DNA from: Aquiflexum balticum DSM 16537
GTDB lineage: Bacteria > Bacteroidota > Bacteroidia > Cytophagales > Cyclobacteriaceae
DNA length: 64,000 bases
Assembly (NCBI RefSeq): GCF_900176595.1
Contig: NZ_LT838813.1
Span: forward strand, 1,674,001-1,738,000
Reading direction: 5' to 3'
Below the pieces are notes generated by a model. That model searched no databases, had not been told where the DNA came from, and saw only the letters and a program-made list of their open reading frames with translations. The position numbers and the translations under genes are program-made. Every line of letters starts with the position of its first letter. The stretch's first letter is position 1. This document shows, one piece after another, positions 935 to 8,800 of the stretch.

Positions 935-1642
935 CTAATTTTCAAGGGATTCTTTGGTTTTCCAAAGCCTCCACCAAGGAGTTCCGGGAGAATCATGATG
1001 CTCATAATGATATCCAAAAAAATAGCAGGAAATGAAAGCCCAAAGATGATTTTTTGATTGACTTCTGGAATGGTGTTTATTTTCCGATTCTCCTTTGTGG
1101 GGGAGATAAGTTCCGAAATAAAACAGCTGCAGGGTGGACAATATTGCAGGAACCATCCAAAATACAATCAGATTTTCAGTAGGTAAAAAAAGTTTAAGGA
1201 TATTGAATGTAACCGCCATCAAAAGAATCTGCCATATGGAAACGTACTGTTTAATAAAACTTAAATACCAAATCAAAAAGTTATCAGACGCATGGTAATC
1301 AGGGTCTTTGTCTGTAGCAACATATCGGTGATGTTCATGATGCTTGGGAAAAAGCCTCCAATAAAAATTATAAGAAAATAAAATTGCCGAAATCCAGCCT
1401 ATAGTATGATTGAGCTTCTTGTTTGAGGATACAATCCCGTGCATCGCATCATGGGCTGTGATAAATAAGCCCGTGTACAGGTGGGTTTGGATTAAAATGC
1501 CAAGGTAAGTTATTGGATTAGACCAGTTTAATTCCCATTGGAGGAGAAAAACCAATGAACCTAACCATAGAAAAATAATAATTAGGGAAATTATTACTCC
1601 TTTGGGGTCGACTGAATCATTATGATATTTTGAAGATTTCAC
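935..1642 (-). CDS. crtW: Beta-carotene 4-ketolase CrtW
   Basis: Integral membrane di-iron oxygenase that would add a 4-keto group to the beta-ionone ring of carotenoids. From the GTG start at 1642 the protein has 235 residues. The histidine motifs are HDAMHG (residues 64-69), HHEHH (101-105) and YHYEHH (211-216), with FGTYLPH just after residue 175, all typical of CrtW. The frame extends upstream to a GTG at 1714 inside ispH. I prefer 1642 because it leaves an N-terminus of the usual length and avoids overlap with ispH, which stops at 1672. Neither start has a clear ribosome binding site. It is the last gene of the sigma-crtI-crtB-crtYcd-ispH-crtW unit. A TACCTTTG box at 1647-1654, with TTTT 19 bases upstream, could be an internal promoter or chance. 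Confidence 0.88.
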   Translation of the reverse strand: MKSSKYHNDSVDPKGVIISLIIIFLWLGSLVFLLQWELNWSNPITYLGILIQTHLYTGLFITAHDAMHGIVSSNKKLNHTIGWISAILFSYNFYWRLFPKHHEHHRYVATDKDPDYHASDNFLIWYLSFIKQYVSIWQILLMAVTFNILKLFLPTENLIVFWMVPAILSTLQLFYFGTYLPHKGESENKHHSRSQSKNHLWAFISCYFFGYHYEHHDSPGTPWWRLWKTKESLEN

Positions 1643-1671
1643 TTTGCAAAGGTAGAAAAGAAATTGATTGA

Positions 1672-2517
1672 CTAAAAAGTCGCTATTTTTTCTTTCACCT
1701 GTTCCATCAACCACATGGGTGTGGAGGTAGCACCACAGATACCAACAGTATCGTTAATTCTAAACCATTCTTTGTCTACCTGTTCAGGATTGGAAACAAA
1801 ATAGGTGTCTGGATTTTTTTCTTTGCAGACATTGTAAAGAACTTTTCCATTTGAGGATTTAGTACCGCTGACAAAAATGATTTTATCAAACTTTTCGGCA
1901 AAGGACCGTAGTTCCTTATCTCTATTGGAAACTTGTCTACAAATGGTATCATTCGTATTGACTGTTATACCATTTTCCTTTAGGATATCCGTAATTTCAT
2001 AAAACTTGTCAGTACTTTTTGTGGTCTGACTGTATAAGGTTAAATTTTTAGGCAAGTTTGGTAAATCAAGTTCGCTGATATCCTGAAAGACGACTGCCTT
2101 ATTACTGGTCTGACCCAATAATCCAATTACTTCTGCGTGGCCATGCTTTCCATAGATATAAATTGTTTCATCTTTATCAAATGAATTTTTGATTCGGTTC
2201 TGCAATTTCAATACCACCGGGCAACTCGCATCGATCAAGGTAAGATTGTTGTTGATGGCCAATTCATAGGTAGAGGGTGGTTCACCATGCGCTCTGATCA
2301 GTACTTTTTCATTGAAAAGGGACTTTAATTCTTCATGATCGATTATTTTCAATCCTTTGCTGGTAAGCCGTTTCACTTCTTCATCATTGTGAACGATATC
2401 ACCCAAACAGTATAAATAACCTTGATCTTCAAGGATCTCTTCTGCCATTTCAATGGCATAGACTACTCCAAAACAGAAACCGGAATGCTGGTCGATATGT
2501 ACTTGCAGGTTCATCAT
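1672..2517 (-). CDS. ispH: 4-hydroxy-3-methylbut-2-enyl diphosphate reductase IspH
   Basis: Last enzyme of the MEP isoprenoid pathway, an iron-sulphur protein reducing HMBPP to IPP and DMAPP. The three cluster cysteines are visible in HSGFCFGV near the N-terminus, in DASCPVV in the middle and in GICGATSTP near the C-terminus. The catalytic-loop signatures IRAHGEPP and YGKHGHAEV are also present. The frame runs back to 2571 inside crtYcd, but the pair of ATG codons at 2517 and 2514 lies just after the crtYcd stop (2522) and gives the normal N-terminus (MMNLQVHIDQ). I take 2517. The gene sits inside the carotenoid operon, so precursor supply would rise with carotenoid synthesis. It is well conserved with no odd residues, and whether a second ispH exists elsewhere cannot be seen. 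Confidence 0.93.
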   Translation of the reverse strand: MMNLQVHIDQHSGFCFGVVYAIEMAEEILEDQGYLYCLGDIVHNDEEVKRLTSKGLKIIDHEELKSLFNEKVLIRAHGEPPSTYELAINNNLTLIDASCPVVLKLQNRIKNSFDKDETIYIYGKHGHAEVIGLLGQTSNKAVVFQDISELDLPNLPKNLTLYSQTTKSTDKFYEITDILKENGITVNTNDTICRQVSNRDKELRSFAEKFDKIIFVSGTKSSNGKVLYNVCKEKNPDTYFVSNPEQVDKEWFRINDTVGICGATSTPMWLMEQVKEKIATF

Positions 2518-2521
2518 AGCC

Positions 2522-3232
2522 TTATAAACTTTTGACAGTCTGAATTGTTTTGTTATTCTTAATGCGTTCATAAATACTAAGATTCATGAGCAATAAGGTC
2601 ATTGAATAAACGGTATCTTCTATCGGGATGGTCAAAATTCTTATGGAAAGATTCTCCAAATTATTATAAATCACCACAGGTTCATCAATAAAAGATCCGG
2701 TCAATATCCCATTTACGAAGAGAAACGGTATCAATGAAACGAAATAAGCTAAATAAAATCTTCCTAAGTATTTGGTCTGAAAGAGTATATAATGGATAGA
2801 TAACGTTGCACTTCCGACCAGAAAATTAACCGAAGTGTACCATTTGTCCAGATTCATGATTCCTATAAGGAAGAAAAATGGTATCAGCACCAATGTAAAA
2901 GGCTTGGCAAAACCACTGAGAATATCTTTTTTCACAAAATAATTCAGGACTTCATATATAAATATACAGGCAAAAGGGACGGTTAGGAAAAACAGCCATT
3001 CTTCCAAAGGCAATTCAAAAATGTATATACCTATGAGATAACGCGGATTAAACTCCCAAACGCCTATGATTGTAAACCAATGATCCCAGACCAGGAAAAA
3101 AAATCCGGTAATGATTATTGCTGGGAACAAGGCATACCATTTTTTTGCATATTGTACCCTGTGTTCAAATGAACGGATTAAAGGATACGAAATGGTGAGA
3201 ATATTCAGTATAAGGTAGAGGTACTTTTCCAT
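2522..3232 (-). CDS. crtYcd: Fused lycopene beta-cyclase, CrtYcd type
   Basis: Integral membrane lycopene cyclase of 236 residues that combines in one chain the two small halves found as CrtYc and CrtYd in actinobacteria. Each half carries the signature of the family: FNPRY with PLEEWLFF (residues 61-82), and IPIEDTVYSM (202-211). At least six hydrophobic segments are apparent. It would form beta-ionone rings on lycopene, giving gamma- and beta-carotene. Fusion-type cyclases of this kind are known from Algoriphagus and relatives. It begins 3 bases after the crtB stop and ends 4 bases before the ispH start, so it is certainly cotranscribed. Whether it cyclises one or both ends is not readable, but the presence of cruF suggests monocyclic products are made. 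Confidence 0.9.
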   Translation of the reverse strand: MEKYLYLILNILTISYPLIRSFEHRVQYAKKWYALFPAIIITGFFFLVWDHWFTIIGVWEFNPRYLIGIYIFELPLEEWLFFLTVPFACIFIYEVLNYFVKKDILSGFAKPFTLVLIPFFFLIGIMNLDKWYTSVNFLVGSATLSIHYILFQTKYLGRFYLAYFVSLIPFLFVNGILTGSFIDEPVVIYNNLENLSIRILTIPIEDTVYSMTLLLMNLSIYERIKNNKTIQTVKSL

Positions 3233-3235
3233 ATA

Positions 3236-4084
3236 TTAACCTAAACCGAGTTTCGTCCCAAAATAGGTCCCCAATAAAAGAGAGATTTTTCTTGAATTTG
3301 GAATTCTGACCCTTTGATGTGTAATAATTTCCGGTGGAAGTCTTTTGATTTTATCAAATAGCTTCTGATAATACAAATAGGCCACTTTTACCCCAAGTTT
3401 AGCACTCAAAGGTAATCTCCTGATCCCATCCAAAGCTTCGTCAAAATCATGCTGTATATCTTCCTCAATCAATATTTTTGCCGACTTGTCAAAAGTGTTA
3501 AAATCAACTCCAGGAAAATAAACTCTCCCTCTTTCTTCAAAATCACTTTTGATATCCCTCAAGAAATTCACTTTCTGGAAGGCAGACCCCAATTTACAGG
3601 CAGGCTTTCTTAAGCTTTCGTACATTTTTTGGTCCCCTTCACAAAAGACCCTTAAACACATCAGGCCCACCACCTCCGCTGAACCATAGATATATTCGTG
3701 GTATCTGGAATCATTGTAAGTTTTGAAATCAAGGTCCATTTCCATGCTTTTGAGAAAGGCCTCGATGAGATCAAGATCTATTTTGAATTGGTTGACAATC
3801 AGCTGAAAGGCATGAAGGACAGGATTGAGACTGATTCCATTTTCAATCGCTTCATAGGTATCTTTTTTGAATTCTTCCAGAAGCGCTTTCTTGTTTTTGT
3901 CATGAAAAGTGTCCACTATTTCATCTGCATAGCGCACAAATCCATAAATGGCGTAAATTGGTAAATGTAGCTTCTTATCCAGTGTTTTGATCCCCAACGT
4001 AAAACTTGTGCTATACTTTTGGGTGATCAATTTACTACATTCCAAAGTAGTTTGGTCATAGAGCAGTTTTGGATCCATCCCCAT
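3236..4084 (-). CDS. crtB: Phytoene synthase CrtB
   Basis: Condenses two geranylgeranyl diphosphate molecules to phytoene, the first committed step of carotenoid synthesis. The 282-residue length is usual. The two Mg2+-binding aspartate motifs of the squalene/phytoene synthase family are present: DEIVD at residues 54-58 within YGFVRYADEIVDTF, and RDIKSD (176-181) followed by FEERGRVYFP. ATG codons lie at 4084 and two codons later; either could be used. It starts 18 bases after the crtI stop and is followed 3 bases on by crtYcd. The enzyme is expected to be membrane-associated. No GGPP synthase gene is in the window to supply its substrate. Confidence 0.95.
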   Translation of the reverse strand: MGMDPKLLYDQTTLECSKLITQKYSTSFTLGIKTLDKKLHLPIYAIYGFVRYADEIVDTFHDKNKKALLEEFKKDTYEAIENGISLNPVLHAFQLIVNQFKIDLDLIEAFLKSMEMDLDFKTYNDSRYHEYIYGSAEVVGLMCLRVFCEGDQKMYESLRKPACKLGSAFQKVNFLRDIKSDFEERGRVYFPGVDFNTFDKSAKILIEEDIQHDFDEALDGIRRLPLSAKLGVKVAYLYYQKLFDKIKRLPPEIITHQRVRIPNSRKISLLLGTYFGTKLGLG

Positions 4085-4102
4085 AATTTACAATTTTTTT
4101 AT

Positions 4103-5581
4103 TTAATTATTATCTTTATCAACCTCTTTTGCTACAACATGTCCGGAAATCAATGTAGGCGGAACTCCTGGTCCCGGCACAGTTAATTGTCCGGTGTAAT
4201 ATAAGTTTTTCACTTTTTTACTTTTCAAAGAGGGTTTAAGAATTGCTGTCTGAAACAGTGTATTTGCTAATCCGTAGGCATTTCCTTTAAAGGCATTATA
4301 GTCCGATTTGAAATCACTATGTGCGTAGGAACGTTTATAAATAATATGGCTTCTGATCTCTTGCCCTGTAAGTTTTTCCAACCTGTCCATCACCATGTGA
4401 AAATATTTCTCCCTGATTTCTTCTCCATCTTCCAAGTCAGGTGCCAATGGAATTAAAATTACCAGATTTTCTTTTCCTTCCGGTGCTACAGAAGGGTCTG
4501 TTATAGAGGCCGCCGATAGATAAAAAAGAGGCCTTTCCGGCCATCTTGGATTTTTATAGATAGCATCTGCATGGGGGCCCATTTGTTCATCGAAAAACAA
4601 ACAGTGGTGGGTAAGATTATCCAATTTCTTATCTACACCCAAGTAAAATAACAGAGAAGAGGGGGCCATGACTCGCTTGTCCCAGTATTTTTCATCATAA
4701 TTCCTGTATTGAGGAGTCAGCAACTGACTGTCTACATGATGGTAATCTGCTCCTGCCACCACGATATCCGTATCAAAGCTTTCTCCGCTTTTCAATACCA
4801 CTCTTTTGGCCACACCGTTACTGACTTCAATTTGTGACACATCAGCTCCAAGATGTATTTTAACACCTTTTTCTTCAGCAAGAGTCACCATTCCTTTGAC
4901 AATTTCATGCATGCCGCCCATAGGATACCAGGTTCCTAAAACGATATCGGCATAATTCATAAGACTGTATAAAGCAGGAATGTTTTCGGCCATTTCACCC
5001 AAAAAAATAACTGGAAATTCCATCAGGCGGATAATATTTTCATCTTTAAAAAATTTTCTAACATGTTTGGACATGGATTGGAATACATCCATCCTTATGA
5101 CATCTGCCAATAATCCCGGACTTGTAAATTCAAAAATCGATCTGCTTGGTCTATATACCAGGTCCTGAATCCCGACTTTATATTTGTAAGCCGCCTGTTT
5201 CAAAAACTCATCAAGTTTTGGTCCTACACCGGGTTCCATACTTTCCATCAGATCTCTGAACTTCTCGAAATTAGCAGGTATGGGTACAAATTGGTTCTCA
5301 CCGAAAATTACCGTATAGGATGGGTCAAGCCTTATCAGGTTATAATAATCTGATGGCTTTTTTCCAAAATGTCCAAAATAGGAATCAAATACATCAGGCA
5401 TCCAATACCAGCTTGGCCCCATATCAAAAACAAAACCCTCGGCTTCGAACTTTCTTGCTCTACCTCCGGGGGTTGTATTTTTTTCTAGAAGAGTTACCTG
5501 ATATCCTAGGTGTGCCAAATGTGTTGCTGCTGATAGGCCTGCAAAACCAGCACCTATTACTACAACATTTTTACCGGGCAT
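4103..5581 (-). CDS. crtI: Phytoene desaturase CrtI
   Basis: FAD-dependent desaturase converting phytoene stepwise to lycopene. The 492-residue length fits. The N-terminus has the dinucleotide-binding GAGFAG (residues 10-15), followed by LLEKNTTPGGRARKF. The C-terminal signature LYYTGQLTVPGPGVPPTLIS is the bacterial CrtI carotenoid-desaturase motif. The gene follows the sigma factor by 5 bases and precedes crtB by 18, in a compact operon. It is the only desaturase of this family in the window. The 3,4-desaturase (CrtD) needed for flexixanthin-type carotenoids is not here, so either another locus supplies it or the product is less desaturated. The assignment as CrtI rather than CrtD rests on position next to crtB and overall similarity. 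Confidence 0.93.
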   Translation of the reverse strand: MPGKNVVVIGAGFAGLSAATHLAHLGYQVTLLEKNTTPGGRARKFEAEGFVFDMGPSWYWMPDVFDSYFGHFGKKPSDYYNLIRLDPSYTVIFGENQFVPIPANFEKFRDLMESMEPGVGPKLDEFLKQAAYKYKVGIQDLVYRPSRSIFEFTSPGLLADVIRMDVFQSMSKHVRKFFKDENIIRLMEFPVIFLGEMAENIPALYSLMNYADIVLGTWYPMGGMHEIVKGMVTLAEEKGVKIHLGADVSQIEVSNGVAKRVVLKSGESFDTDIVVAGADYHHVDSQLLTPQYRNYDEKYWDKRVMAPSSLLFYLGVDKKLDNLTHHCLFFDEQMGPHADAIYKNPRWPERPLFYLSAASITDPSVAPEGKENLVILIPLAPDLEDGEEIREKYFHMVMDRLEKLTGQEIRSHIIYKRSYAHSDFKSDYNAFKGNAYGLANTLFQTAILKPSLKSKKVKNLYYTGQLTVPGPGVPPTLISGHVVAKEVDKDNN

Positions 5582-5586
5582 ATATT

Positions 5587-6099
5587 TTAGTTTTTGTGTC
5601 TGTACACATGCAGATCGTCTTTTAAAATCTTTCTGGCAATATGTATTCTATTTTTAACAGTTCCAATTGGAATATCTAATTTTTCAGCGATTTCGTGATA
5701 TTTAAAACCCTTATAATGCATCATAAAGGGAACTTTATAAACATCTTCAAGGCCATCAATGGCTGAATAAATATCATCCATTGTAAAATCTCCGAAAGCA
5801 TTGTTTTCAATTAAAATGTCACCGGAATTGATATAATGCAAATTATCTGTTGTATCTACAAAAGTACCTCTTCTTACCATTTTTTGATAGTTGGTGATAA
5901 AAGTATTTTTCATTATGGTATACAACCAGGCTTTTAGATTTGTGCCTTCTGTAAATTTATCTTTATTGGTAAAAGCCTTGACCATGGTATCCTGAAGCAA
6001 GTCATTTGCATCATCCATATCTCTGGTAAGCTTAAGTGCAAATGGCTTTAGCGAACTTGATAATTTGTTAAGCGAGTAACTGAATTCTAGAGTTGTCAT
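5587..6099 (-). CDS. ECF-type RNA polymerase sigma factor of the carotenoid operon
   Basis: A 170-residue ECF sigma-70 protein. Region 2 is seen in the segment with LTRDMDDANDLLQDTMVKAF and LKAWLYTIMKN. Region 4 is seen near the C-terminus as YHEIAEKLDIPIGTVKNRIH, a helix-turn-helix for -35 recognition. An upstream in-frame ATG at 6132 is ruled out, because the -7 promoter element (6121-6128) would fall inside the coding sequence; the ATG at 6099 fits. No anti-sigma factor gene is adjacent. It is first in the operon and only 5 bases from crtI, so its level rises with the enzymes. By inference it directs polymerase to further genes, possibly unlinked carotenoid or stress genes, or to its own operon. 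Confidence 0.88.
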   Translation of the reverse strand: MTTLEFSYSLNKLSSSLKPFALKLTRDMDDANDLLQDTMVKAFTNKDKFTEGTNLKAWLYTIMKNTFITNYQKMVRRGTFVDTTDNLHYINSGDILIENNAFGDFTMDDIYSAIDGLEDVYKVPFMMHYKGFKYHEIAEKLDIPIGTVKNRIHIARKILKDDLHVYRHKN

Positions 6100-6110
6100 G
6101 GCTTTTTGTT

Positions 6111-6191
6111 TTTGTTTAAACAAATGTAACATTCATTAAACAAAATGCAAACATTTTGTCTAATTATTTTTCATTTTTATTAAACAAAATA
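6111..6191. promoter_or_regulatory. Operator array of TTARACAAARTG half-sites over the crt promoter
   Basis: A near-perfect inverted repeat has arms TTAAACAAAATG (6136-6147) and CATTTTGTCTAA (6152-6163), 11 of 12 bases matching. The arms are separated by CAAA, which is the -33 element of the promoter on the other strand. Further half-sites are TTAAACAAATG at 6116-6126, inside the 14-bp palindrome TTTGTTTAAACAAA (6111-6124) over the -7 element, and TTAAACAAAATA at 6180-6191. A fifth half-site, TTAGACAAAGTG, lies at 6281-6292 on the minus strand. Spacings of the plus-strand copies are 20 and 44 bases, about two and four helical turns. The adjacent MerR protein is the obvious candidate to bind here; that is inference. 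Confidence 0.7.
6121..6151 (-). promoter_or_regulatory. Promoter of the sigma-crtIB-crtYcd-ispH-crtW operon
   Basis: Reading the minus strand, TTTG (6151-6148) is followed after exactly 19 bases by TACATTTG (6128-6121). This is a perfect match to the Bacteroidota housekeeping promoter TTTG-N19-TAnnTTTG. The expected transcription start is near 6114, 15 bases before the ATG at 6099. Confidence 0.8.
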
Positions 6192-6256
6192 AAGCCTTGA
6201 TAATAAAAAATATTTGAAATTTTTGAAAAATAAGGCTTTGAGTTCGAATTAGGCAC

Positions 6257-6286
6257 AAAAAAAGTGAAAATCTTAATTTTCACTTT
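6257..6286 (-). terminator. Terminator after the merR-like gene
   Basis: The arms AAAGTGAAAAT (6261-6271) and ATTTTCACTTT (6276-6286) pair perfectly over a CTTA loop and continue into a T-run on the minus strand. It separates the cruF-crtZ-merR unit from the sigma-crt promoter. Confidence 0.8.
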
Positions 6287-6319
6287 GTCTAATATTTTTT
6301 CAAAAAGATAAAACTGAAT

Positions 6320-7216
6320 TTACTTTTCAATGGTGACCTCTTCCATCTCTTCAAGGTATTCTCTCACTTGACGTATATAATTCAGGGATTTTACATTTTT
6401 GGGCAACTTTATATCCTGTCCGACTATTTGATAGCCCGAAACAATAATCTTTGCATTGTTGAATCTTTCAGATAGTACATCAATATATTCCTGAACATTC
6501 TCAGCACTTGGGGAAGTGGTAATTACAGTCATTAAGTATTCAGGTTGATGTAAATTATAAACCGAATCCAGATCATCATCAGGAGTACTCTGCCCCAAAT
6601 AGATAACTTTATGGCCTTTCAGTTTGATCAGGTAAGCAGCAAAAAGAATGGAGATTTCATGATGTTCGCCTTCGGGTAAATAAAGAAGGAATTTTTTACC
6701 ACCGCCTTTATATATCTGAGCATCTATTGCGACAATAAGTTTTTGTCTGATCAGATTACTAATGAAATGTTCCTGAGCAGGATTGATAGCGCCGGTTTGC
6801 CAAAGTACACCGATTTTGGACATGAAAGGATAAATGATATTAAGCATCGTCTGCTCAAACCCGATTTTCAAAATATTGGTAGAAAGTACCTTATCGAACC
6901 TTTCCTCATCCATTTCGACCATGCAGATAGTGAGGGCATTTATCTGATCGTCATGCGTAAGGGTTTTTTCTGTCAGTTTAATGACTTCCTCTTTCATCTC
7001 AACACCAGACATTCCGGCTATCTTGCTGATCTTGTATCCATTGTCATTGAGCAATGCAACATTCAGGATCAACTTTAGGTCTGCATCATCATAAAACCTG
7101 ATATTGGTATCCGTTCTTTTCGGCAATAACAGATTATATCTTTGTTCCCAAATTCGCAAAGTATGGGCTTTTATTCCTGAAAGCTGCTCGAGATCTTTAA
7201 TTGAATAAGTACTCAC
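6320..7216 (-). CDS. MerR-family regulator with B12-binding domain (CarH/LitR-like photoreceptor candidate)
   Basis: A 298-residue cytoplasmic repressor candidate. Residues 1-70 form a MerR winged helix-turn-helix (SIKDLEQLSGIKAHTLRIWE). Residues 90-165 match the four-helix cap of B12 photoreceptors and contain W139 and E149-H150, which reproduce the Wx9EH motif that caps adenosylcobalamin in CarH. Residues 175-290 form a Rossmann-like cobalamin-binding domain with EHHEIS at 184-189 in place of the usual ExHxxG, so the cobalt-ligand His (186) is kept but the final Gly is Ser. The start is GTG at 7216, sharing one base with the crtZ stop (TAGTG), so translation is coupled. By family knowledge, light would break the cobalamin bond and release the crt promoter; ligand use here is unproven. 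Confidence 0.85.
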   Translation of the reverse strand: MSTYSIKDLEQLSGIKAHTLRIWEQRYNLLLPKRTDTNIRFYDDADLKLILNVALLNDNGYKISKIAGMSGVEMKEEVIKLTEKTLTHDDQINALTICMVEMDEERFDKVLSTNILKIGFEQTMLNIIYPFMSKIGVLWQTGAINPAQEHFISNLIRQKLIVAIDAQIYKGGGKKFLLYLPEGEHHEISILFAAYLIKLKGHKVIYLGQSTPDDDLDSVYNLHQPEYLMTVITTSPSAENVQEYIDVLSERFNNAKIIVSGYQIVGQDIKLPKNVKSLNYIRQVREYLEEMEEVTIEK

Positions 7217-7659
7217 TATTTTTTTAATTTAAAATATTTCTTTGGTACCCAAAACAAACCGAAAGAGACGGCATCATTTTTTTTGTTTGTGGCGTGATGA
7301 GCCTGATGGGCCTGAAAAATTCCCAACAGGAATTTACTTTTAGGTCTCTCAAACCATTTGATTCTTCTGTGAACCAGAACATCATGAATAATGAAGTAGC
7401 TGATACCATAAATGCTTATTCCAACTCCCATCCAAAAGCGATAATCCAACTTATCAACTCCCAGAAATATCAATAAAACTGCAATACTACCGAACATCAA
7501 TGAAAACAAATCATTGAGTTCGAAAAATGTTTTTGAGGGCTCATGATGGGTTTTGTGGATTCCCCATAAAGGACCATGCATAATATATTTATGAATGAAC
7601 CATCCTGAGAATTCCATTACAGCAAATCCCAGTATTATAAATATAATTGCGTACATCAT
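7216..7659 (-). CDS. crtZ: Beta-carotene 3-hydroxylase CrtZ
   Basis: Membrane di-iron hydroxylase of 147 residues that adds the 3-hydroxyl group to beta-rings. Histidine clusters of the fatty acid hydroxylase superfamily are in place: HKYIMH (23-28), HKTHH (35-39), HDVLVH (92-97) and HQAHH (118-122). Three to four hydrophobic segments are seen. It overlaps the start of the merR-like gene by one base and follows cruF by 48 bases. Together with CrtW it would give 3-hydroxy-4-keto end groups. Two ATG codons stand at 7659 and 7656. Length and motifs are normal. Confidence 0.92.
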   Translation of the reverse strand: MMYAIIFIILGFAVMEFSGWFIHKYIMHGPLWGIHKTHHEPSKTFFELNDLFSLMFGSIAVLLIFLGVDKLDYRFWMGVGISIYGISYFIIHDVLVHRRIKWFERPKSKFLLGIFQAHQAHHATNKKNDAVSFGLFWVPKKYFKLKK

Positions 7660-7707
7660 TAGGTTAACTTTTTAAGATGCGGAATGTTTTAGATTGTTTT
7701 TCAGAAT

Positions 7708-8391
7708 TTAAACAATAAAATTTAAAATGATAAAGAATGCAATCAGATTGATCAATAGGAACGATGAAATGGGGTTTCCCTTTTGAAATGATGCCTTCCG
7801 GAATATCAAATGTATCAGATAGCCAACTGCCAACCAACCAATGTAATTGGAAAGCGGTATTTCATTCATTTCCCAAGACCAAAAATCCAATTTCATGGCG
7901 ACAGGTTCAATCAAGAAATCTATCCCTACCATCAATCCTGCGCCCAAAGCTGCAGCCAACCAATTATTTTTGATTTTTTTGGAAAATAAATTACCGGTAA
8001 GGTAAACCAGCAACAACCAATTCACTCCAATCATAAGCGGCACTTCAAATAGTTGAATGCCCAGAACAGTGCCATACCGGTAGTTTCCAAAAGGGAATCC
8101 TGTATGTACTCCCAAAACTTCCGATCCATATCCAATAAGGAATGCCGAAATTGCAAAAAAACTGAAAGATTTATTCCAATCTGAATGAAATAGGACCAAT
8201 ATCCCCAAACTTAGCAGTAAATGGAAGGGTGTCATAATTTGAAAAAATGGTCTCAAATTCGGAATAGACATCCCAATGATTCCCACCAGATGAAAAATGA
8301 AAATAATAAATTTAAAAAGAGAGGCTCTTTTTTCCTGTATTTTCTGAAGATTTGTAAACACTGATATATTTTCTGTTTTGCTATAAGGCAT
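7708..8391 (-). CDS. cruF: Carotenoid 1',2'-hydratase CruF (DUF422 family)
   Basis: A 227-residue multi-spanning membrane protein with about six hydrophobic segments. The conserved stretch GYGSEVLGVHTGFPFGNY (residues 88-105) and the acidic IDFLIEPVA segment mark the CruF family, which hydrates the psi end of gamma-carotene or lycopene to a 1'-hydroxy group. This indicates that monocyclic carotenoids, such as deoxyflexixanthin or flexixanthin, are made. It is first in the cruF-crtZ-merR unit and divergent from the DUF4286 gene. The reaction specificity is inferred from the family and from the neighbouring cyclase, ketolase and hydroxylase. Confidence 0.85.
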   Translation of the reverse strand: MPYSKTENISVFTNLQKIQEKRASLFKFIIFIFHLVGIIGMSIPNLRPFFQIMTPFHLLLSLGILVLFHSDWNKSFSFFAISAFLIGYGSEVLGVHTGFPFGNYRYGTVLGIQLFEVPLMIGVNWLLLVYLTGNLFSKKIKNNWLAAALGAGLMVGIDFLIEPVAMKLDFWSWEMNEIPLSNYIGWLAVGYLIHLIFRKASFQKGNPISSFLLINLIAFFIILNFIV

Positions 8392-8494: not shown

Positions 8495-8800
8495 ATGATT
8501 TTATATAACGTAACTGTCAATATTGAAAAAGAATTCGAATTGGACTGGGTTAATTGGATGAAAGAAACCCATATCCCGGATGTGCTTGCCACAGGAATGT
8601 TTTTGGAAAACAGATTCTACAAAATATTGCATGAATCAGAAGATGGCAGTGCAAATTACTCTGTTCAATATTTTGCCGAATCCATGGAGAAAATCATCGA
8701 TTATCAAAATAATTATGCTCAAAAGCTTCAGGAGGATGTATCCATAAAGTTTCAGGATAAATTCGTCGTATTCCGGACCCTCCTTGAAACTGTGGAATAG
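8495..8800 (+). CDS. DUF4286 family protein
   Basis: A 101-residue soluble protein matching the DUF4286 pattern of Bacteroidota: an N-terminal YNVTVNIEKE strand, the W-containing DWVNWMKETHIPDVLATG segment and a ferredoxin-like alpha/beta composition ending in RTLLETVE. Its function is unknown. It starts 103 bases from the divergent cruF gene and is followed after 61 bases by tag on the same strand, so the two may be cotranscribed. No signal peptide or membrane segment is seen. Confidence 0.85.
   Translation: MILYNVTVNIEKEFELDWVNWMKETHIPDVLATGMFLENRFYKILHESEDGSANYSVQYFAESMEKIIDYQNNYAQKLQEDVSIKFQDKFVVFRTLLETVE

Follow-up and report, generated by a model that had tools for sequence, protein, structure and literature searches.

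The carotenoid locus of Aquiflexum balticum

The genome of A. balticum DSM 16537 is a single contig of 5.99 Mb, in which the window (the whole stretch of 64 kb analysed here) lies. On the minus strand, the gene order is CruF-like, crtZ-like, MerR, a 220-bp gap, ECF sigma factor, crtI, crtB-like, lycopene cyclase, ispH and crtW-like, with the following window coordinates.

8391-7708, minus: CruF-like gene, upstream of merR (the upstream genes span 7216-8391)
7659-7216, minus: crtZ-like gene, fatty-acid-hydroxylase family, upstream of merR
6320-7216, minus: CarH/LitR-like MerR protein, probable repressor with B12-binding domains
5587-6099, minus: ECF-type sigma factor, first gene of the putatively regulated operon, ATG at 6099
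5581-4103, minus: crtI (the downstream crt genes span 935-5581)
4084-3236, minus: crtB-like gene
3232-2522, minus: lycopene cyclase domain protein
2571-1672, minus: ispH
1714-935, minus: crtW-like gene

The ECF and crt genes were treated as one transcript, which is an assumption. An ECF gene lies downstream of the MerR gene in 24 of the 30 best loci (own locus included; 1.5 kb examined) and within 4 kb of it in 42 of 80 named loci. The closest named relatives of the MerR protein, which are at most 80% identical to it, come mostly from Algoriphagus and other Cyclobacteriaceae-type records.

The palindrome and the promoter elements

The features of the merR-ECF gap, all on the minus strand, are listed below; half-sites are denoted A to E.

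6284-6292, minus: lone half-site E (TTAGACAAA), 148 bp upstream of C
6257-6286, minus: predicted merR intrinsic terminator, 11-bp perfect stem and T run, fold z -1.55
6155-6188, minus: unit A-B, TTTGTTTAA-N16-TTAGACAAA (A 6180-6188, B 6155-6163), upstream of the -33 element
6136-6163, minus: palindrome formed by the adjoining half-sites B and C (N10), with the -33 TTTG at its centre
6148-6151, minus: -33 element TTTG, between B and C
6111-6144, minus: unit C-D, TTTGTTTAA-N16-TTAAACAAA (C 6136-6144 in the promoter spacer, D 6111-6119)
6121-6128, minus: -7 element TACATTTG, between C and D

A first-pass annotation had placed a TTTG-N19 promoter before the ECF gene and an operator palindrome on its -33 element. 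The coordinates agree with both: TTTG (6151 to 6148) precedes the -7 box TACATTTG (6128 to 6121) by N19, and the palindrome TTAGACAAAATG-TTTG-CATTTTGTTTAA (6163 to 6136) has arms matched at 11 of 12 positions and the -33 TTTG exactly at its centre. TTTG and TAnnTTTG are what we take to be the Bacteroidota promoter consensus. Additional half-sites proposed by that annotation could be located as A, D and E, but none of them truly covers the -7 box; the site assigned there is more plausibly D (TTAAACAAA), which follows immediately downstream of -7. The string CATTTGTTTAA, considered as a separate half-site over the -7 box, was rejected as a composite, its TTTG belonging to the -7 box and its TTAA to D.

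Across the 5.99-Mb genome, the half-site TTARACAAARTG is matched exactly 10 times and its reversed control 9 times. A single site is thus at chance level, and the idea that lone TTARACAAARTG sites in other parts of the genome form a regulon was discarded. Three of the 10 matches fall in one 157-bp stretch at the crt promoter. Half-sites with up to two mismatches showed no excess across the whole window (43 observed, 49 expected). The arrangement TTARACAAA-N4..16-TTTGTYTAA was found once in the genome and not in the control.

A 34-bp unit occurring twice at the crt promoter

We found two copies of a 34-bp inverted repeat, TTTGTYTAA-N16-TTARACAAA, at the crt promoter and take this repeat as the predicted operator unit; A to C and B to D are each 44 bp apart. 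When spacings from N10 to N22 were allowed, three places were found in the A. balticum genome, all with N16 (control, one place); the third lies 28 bp before an operon of 6-pyruvoyl-tetrahydropterin synthase (PTPS), GTP cyclohydrolase I (folE) and SDR genes. What is repeated, here and in other genomes, is the N16 pair and not the N10 palindrome; the palindrome is the junction of two predicted operators. It had been put forward as the operator itself, a reading that does not agree with the single units elsewhere, which are N16 or N17 pairs and not N10 pairs. The palindrome recurs in related crt promoters, with the N10 junction in 20 of 66 upstream regions and its centring on the -33 element conserved. 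Tandem 11-bp repeats of the CarH type were not found inside the units (inspection by eye of the Aquiflexum crt promoter).

In a scan of these 66 crt upstream regions with a threshold of at least 8/9 per half-site, the N16 pair was present in 47 and N17 in 11, and A to C and B to D stood at 44 bp in 21 regions each, whereas no spacing count exceeded 2 in 200 mononucleotide shuffles. A four-site array scoring at least 30/36 was observed in 40 regions, 28 of which have the exact 16-10-16 geometry. In these 28 arrays, TTG occurs at offsets 3-5 of the B-C gap in 25 and TAnnTTTG at offset 7 of the C-D gap in 24. Their half-site columns are 88-99% identical, compared with 64-72% in the spacers and 53% in the flanks, a contrast that is partly built in because the rows were chosen by half-site match. 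For a fairer count, 122 unique related promoters (their collection is described below) were anchored on C-D alone. B (at least 7/9) was found exactly at C-19 in 79 promoters and within 1 bp of it in up to 94; A occupied C-44 itself in 85, a number that rises to at most 104 when a shift of 1 bp is allowed. At other offsets, R-type sites averaged 0.6 (maximum 2) and F-type sites 1.8 (maximum 5). TAnnTTTG lies at C+16, inside the C-D unit, in 92 of the 122, with 4 more at +1 and none at -2, -1 or +2, and TTG occupies offsets 3-5 of the 10 nt preceding C in 100. Distant relatives often keep C-D as the only unit. These counts support a fixed register, in the order A, B, -33, C, -7, D, in which the predicted half-sites interleave with the promoter elements.

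One possible explanation is that the MerR protein acts as a classical activator, sitting on the 19-bp spacer at half-site C and untwisting it for the polymerase. Its MerR fold, the N19 spacer and the position of C within it would all suit such a role. However, N19 is a usual spacer of Bacteroidota promoters and classical MerR dyads do not reach 34 bp in length; furthermore, the half-sites flank both promoter elements and extend over the start region, an arrangement that suits blocking, and the nearest solved relatives of the protein are CarH repressors. Activation is thus quite improbable, and promoter occlusion is the best reading of the predicted mode of repression. The first-pass annotation had proposed that repressor and polymerase compete directly for the -33 element; the interleaving of sites and promoter agrees with competition, but the predicted cover extends over -33, -7 and the start region, and is not confined to -33.

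Association of the unit with a CarH-like MerR protein

Of 98 relatives, 54 have exact units (N16 or N17), whereas the reversed control occurs in 2. The MerR protein is encoded in 82 of the 98, and all 54 unit carriers are among them; none of the 16 relatives without MerR has the unit (Fisher 4e-7, a P value that overstates the association because related genomes are not independent). The other 28 MerR-carrying relatives have no exact unit. Across the phylum, exact units occur in 42 of 395 genomes (reversed control, 6). A MerR or B12-domain match at E of 0.001 or lower was obtained in 336 of the 395, mostly weak, and all 42 unit carriers fall among the 72 genomes with a strong MerR match, that is, about 1e-45 or better, a limit chosen by hand from the match list. 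In five of the phylum genomes (G118, G264, G338, G408 and G434), the unit lies about 90-130 bp past the end of the MerR match and contains TACATTTG or TATATTTG. MerR was the only regulator examined for co-occurrence with the units.

The half-site TTARACA contains TnnACA, which, according to excerpts of PMC9304148 and PMC8156234, is the core of the known CarH repeats, whose operators overlap -35 and -10. An alternative possibility could be that another DNA-binding protein, or the ECF sigma factor itself, recognises TTTGTYTAA/TTARACAAA and that MerR is a mere neighbour. The ECF gene is just as near, and of the 65 unit sites surveyed (see below) 28 precede an ECF sigma gene. Yet every unit carrier in both genome sets also has the MerR protein, the units stand directly before merR at 3 of the 65 sites and before non-ECF genes at about 30, and the half-site carries the CarH core; another binder therefore appears rather improbable. 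The earlier suggestion that the adjacent MerR/CarH protein is the repressor holds as far as the predicted binder is concerned, given the exceptionless co-occurrence, the TnnACA core and the adjacency, and the protein encoded at 6320-7216 probably acts on the units as a repressor.

The protein has an N-terminal MerR helix-turn-helix domain (PF13411, E 3e-15, residues 4-69) and a C-terminal B12-binding helical bundle (PF02607, above the cut-off), and its Rossmann B12 domain scores below the cut-off (PF02310, 26.5 vs 32.1). It is not a member of the NCBIfam CarH equivalog NF052513 (94.5 bits vs a cut-off of 400). By sequence and fold, its best solved relative is CarH of Thermus thermophilus (TtCarH; PDB 5C8D and 5C8E, whole-chain TM about 0.6; pLDDT of the model, 89). 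With CarH of T. thermophilus and Bacillus megaterium and with LitR it shares the MerR and B12 domains and the motifs W-x9-EH (W139-x9-E149-H150) and E-x-H (E184-x-H186), as well as an operator that overlaps a carotenoid promoter and has the half-site core TnnACA. Among the 80 named relatives, W139 is present in 80, E149 in 77 and H150 in 72. The lower axial histidine (His177 of TtCarH) corresponds to H186, which is His in 69 of the 80 and Gln in 11. The genome also encodes a cobalamin adenosyltransferase (PF01923). We suppose that the protein works like CarH, as a CarH/LitR-like B12-dependent photoreceptor in the broad sense, with a presumed dependence on adenosylcobalamin and light.

His132 of TtCarH, which ligates cobalt after light, is absent; the position is Q140 here and Q, L, V, I or M, never His, in the 80 relatives. 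According to excerpts of PMC10442372, the source also for the cobalt ligation, the H132A protein largely stays tetrameric after light, although a contrary earlier report is noted in the same paper. With His132 absent and the lower His missing in 11 of 80 relatives, light switching may proceed in another way, or some of these proteins may do without B12. Identity with MliR, a MerR-like regulator of Bacteroidota, was considered and rejected, MliR having no effector domain in the excerpts of PMC9478572. The 11 relatives with Gln (L090, L091, L098, L104, L107, L112-L115, L118 and L120) belong to records titled Saprospiraceae, Lewinella or Lewinellaceae, and none has an ECF neighbour; this group is a candidate for a B12-independent branch.

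A distal half-site in helical phase

E adjoins the predicted merR terminator, and a 12-base match there (6281-6292) runs into the terminator's 5' arm. The terminator was missed by a scan whose rule requires three G-C pairs. Among 42 named MerR-ECF loci, 20 have a site in the orientation of E at most 90 nt from the merR stop, compared with 2.4 on average and no more than 8 in shuffles. In a first look at 32 loci, the distances from E to the array clustered modulo 11, and 100 promoters, drawn from the 215 of 390 family genomes with the ECF, were therefore added; the resulting 142 intergenic regions gave 127 unique ones, of which 122 have the C-D unit.

E was found within 60 nt of the merR stop in 90 of the 122 promoters and not in the other 32. 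The 90 distances from E to C form clusters near 126, 137, 148 and 159 bp, with 22 at 125-127, 25 at 136-139, 25 at 146-150 and 4 at 158-160 bp; the remaining 14 are 82, 83, 92 (twice), 97, 110, 122, 134 (twice), 162, 171, 213, 269 and 307 bp. The resultant length R of the E-to-C distances is 0.77 at a period of 11 bp and reaches its best value, 0.78, at 11.1 bp, compared at 11 bp with 0.54 for E to the ATG, 0.35 for the merR stop to C at the same loci and 0.09 for stop to C at the 32 loci without E. The loci added after the first look gave 0.78 (n = 57; stop to C, 0.43) and the earlier ones 0.76 (n = 33; stop to C, 0.25). In a jitter null computed before the final re-anchoring, none of 2000 replicates reached the observed R at n = 81, 63 or 33; at n = 13, R at 11 bp was 0.65 and the best period 13.0. 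Within 2.5 bp of the phase lie 82 of 89 E sites (45% expected), and 7 are out of phase. The T run of the terminator is less phased than E (0.49, n = 84, vs 0.78), although two words in this region also show phasing (R 0.70-0.71). We rejected the possibility that E is a mere piece of the terminator, because the stems vary but TTAAACAA is retained, and because the phasing of E is stronger than that of the T run.

The E loci come from related genomes in which many distances are inherited, and the phasing might thus be an accident of shared ancestry and A/T-rich sequence. However, in 79 nearest-neighbour pairs the E-to-C distances differ by 0-3 bp in 31, by 4-9 bp in only 3 and by 10-14 bp in 24 (the others by 20-22 bp in 4, 25-27 in 2, 32-34 in 5, 43-46 in 3 and more in 7). 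Furthermore, a FastTree phylogeny of merR/ECF DNA requires at least 12 changes of phase class, and the later-added loci agree with the earlier ones. Such an accident is very unlikely, and selection on helical phase is the natural reading of the pattern.

Two separated predicted operators in helical phase, as in DNA-looping repressors, were observed, and the phasing of the distal E suggests a looping-type signature. The main alternative to a loop is a continuous assembly of repressor on one face of the DNA in an 11-bp register; a related possibility is that E limits read-through or regulates merR. The known CarH repeats are 11 bp long (excerpts of PMC9304148), the 44 bp of A-C and B-D equal 4 times 11, and tandem same-direction sites stand 21 bp apart after the merR stop in some relatives. 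On the other hand, hardly any half-sites of either type, R or F, stand in the stretch preceding A (C offsets -80 to -47; means of 0.6 and 1.8 of 122), and the phasing of the T run is weaker than that of E. Taken together, we regard these explanations as possible but rather unlikely. The loop, if formed, would be special to crt and not general, since no consistent distal phased half-site was found at the single-unit promoters (PTPS, rhodopsin and others) among the 65 unit sites. The tandem sites mentioned above, two half-sites directly after the merR stop, were seen in the Algoriphagus-like records L048, L051, L052 and L056.

Proposed mechanism and known systems

We consider it probable that a CarH/LitR-like repressor blocks the ECF-crt promoter in the dark through the two units and contacts E as well. 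In the dark, presumably with adenosylcobalamin, the MerR protein would bind the 34-bp inverted repeats, and the two tandem units, 44 bp apart, would place four half-sites in alternation with the promoter elements. Because of this alternation, bound repressor would cover the region contacted by RNA polymerase and block initiation: filling A to D, it would hide -33, -7 and the start. The same oligomer may also reach E, whole helical turns away (about 11.1 bp per turn); a DNA loop of 126-159 bp would be the simplest means, and this contact would strengthen repression. Under light, the complex would come apart, and the ECF sigma and carotenoid genes would be released.

Several known systems resemble parts of this scheme. 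In Lac- and Gal-type loops, an auxiliary operator lies about 90-160 bp away, with helical phasing near 11 bp in vivo; however, these repressors and the Aquiflexum MerR belong to unrelated families, and the loop here is a prediction from the phasing of sequences. In Streptomyces, the LitR-LitS system combines a LitR-type regulator, a neighbouring ECF sigma factor and crt genes, under actinobacterial promoters. The operators of T. thermophilus and B. megaterium CarH consist of three or four tandem 11-bp direct repeats (excerpts of PMC9304148), whereas the Aquiflexum arrangement is predicted to have inverted N16 pairs, an N10 junction, two units in 44-bp tandem and a phased distal half-site, and the protein lacks the equivalent of TtCarH His132. 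As the geometry is unlike the direct-repeat sites of the solved CarH-DNA complex, it offers a test of the plasticity of CarH assembly. CarA of Myxococcus xanthus is similar in having an operator of about 55 bp that overlaps -35, is bound cooperatively by two dimers and has been described as containing inverted repeats, but neither a TTTGTYTAA-N16-TTARACAAA motif nor a phased distal site is described for CarA in the excerpts of PMC8156234 and PMC9304148. In the part of the open-access literature inspected on the motif, on CarH/LitR control in Bacteroidota and on CarH loops, we found no report of this operator and no example of a looped operator for the CarH family. For a Chryseobacterium with light-induced carotenoids, excerpts of PMC7064467 state that no car or lit operon was found and leave the regulator open. 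The helical phasing of E is a directly testable prediction.

Targets of the unit in related genomes

We examined 65 unique unit sites, comprising the three of A. balticum and most of the relatives' sites among those listed; the target was defined as a divergent gene within 300 bp of the unit, with priority to named families. The targets were an ECF sigma factor at 28 sites, PTPS at 14, rhodopsin at 5, fasciclin at 5, merR at 3 and flavin reductase at 2, with crtI, photolyase and SDR at one each, other genes at 3 and none at 2. The 28 ECF targets were assigned by blastp to the Aquiflexum ECF, without a check of the crt neighbours one by one, and Pfam was run on one representative each for rhodopsin, fasciclin, flavin reductase, photolyase and PTPS. 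Some units face a second gene: many PTPS sites have a YkuD-type gene beside them, and 4 rhodopsin sites have a gyrase-B-like gene (judged by sequence, without Pfam).

This set of targets fits a light or photo-oxidative stress regulon. Light would also release the single-unit targets, that is, the pterin/folE operon here and rhodopsin, photolyase and others in relatives. Through an operator motif tied to one protein family, the light regulons of many environmental Bacteroidota, rhodopsin included, would become readable from sequence. Only tentatively do we extend the scheme to a light-gated repression loop in Bacteroidota, in which an oligomeric CarH-like repressor connects E, beside the terminator of the repressor gene, with the double operator, the B12 photocycle is non-canonical and the regulon (rhodopsin, photolyase, pterin) is widespread; this combination is possible but falls somewhat short of being probable.

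The microbial rhodopsin genes with the 34-bp unit upstream form one cluster and occur in five relatives (L159, L175, L189, L192 and L143). Another five of the 65 sites (L162, L127, L132, L168 and L174) have no recognised light-related target; these could be chance occurrences or unrecognised members of the regulon. Near the own PTPS-folE-SDR operon, there is an ORF of 151 amino acids (L126:4019-4474) with no Pfam match, and a flavin-reductase gene follows it. A DUF4286 gene (8495-8800 of the window) is divergent from the CruF-crtZ-merR genes, and in one relative (L185) an ORF that resembles it by eye adjoins an N17 unit and merR.
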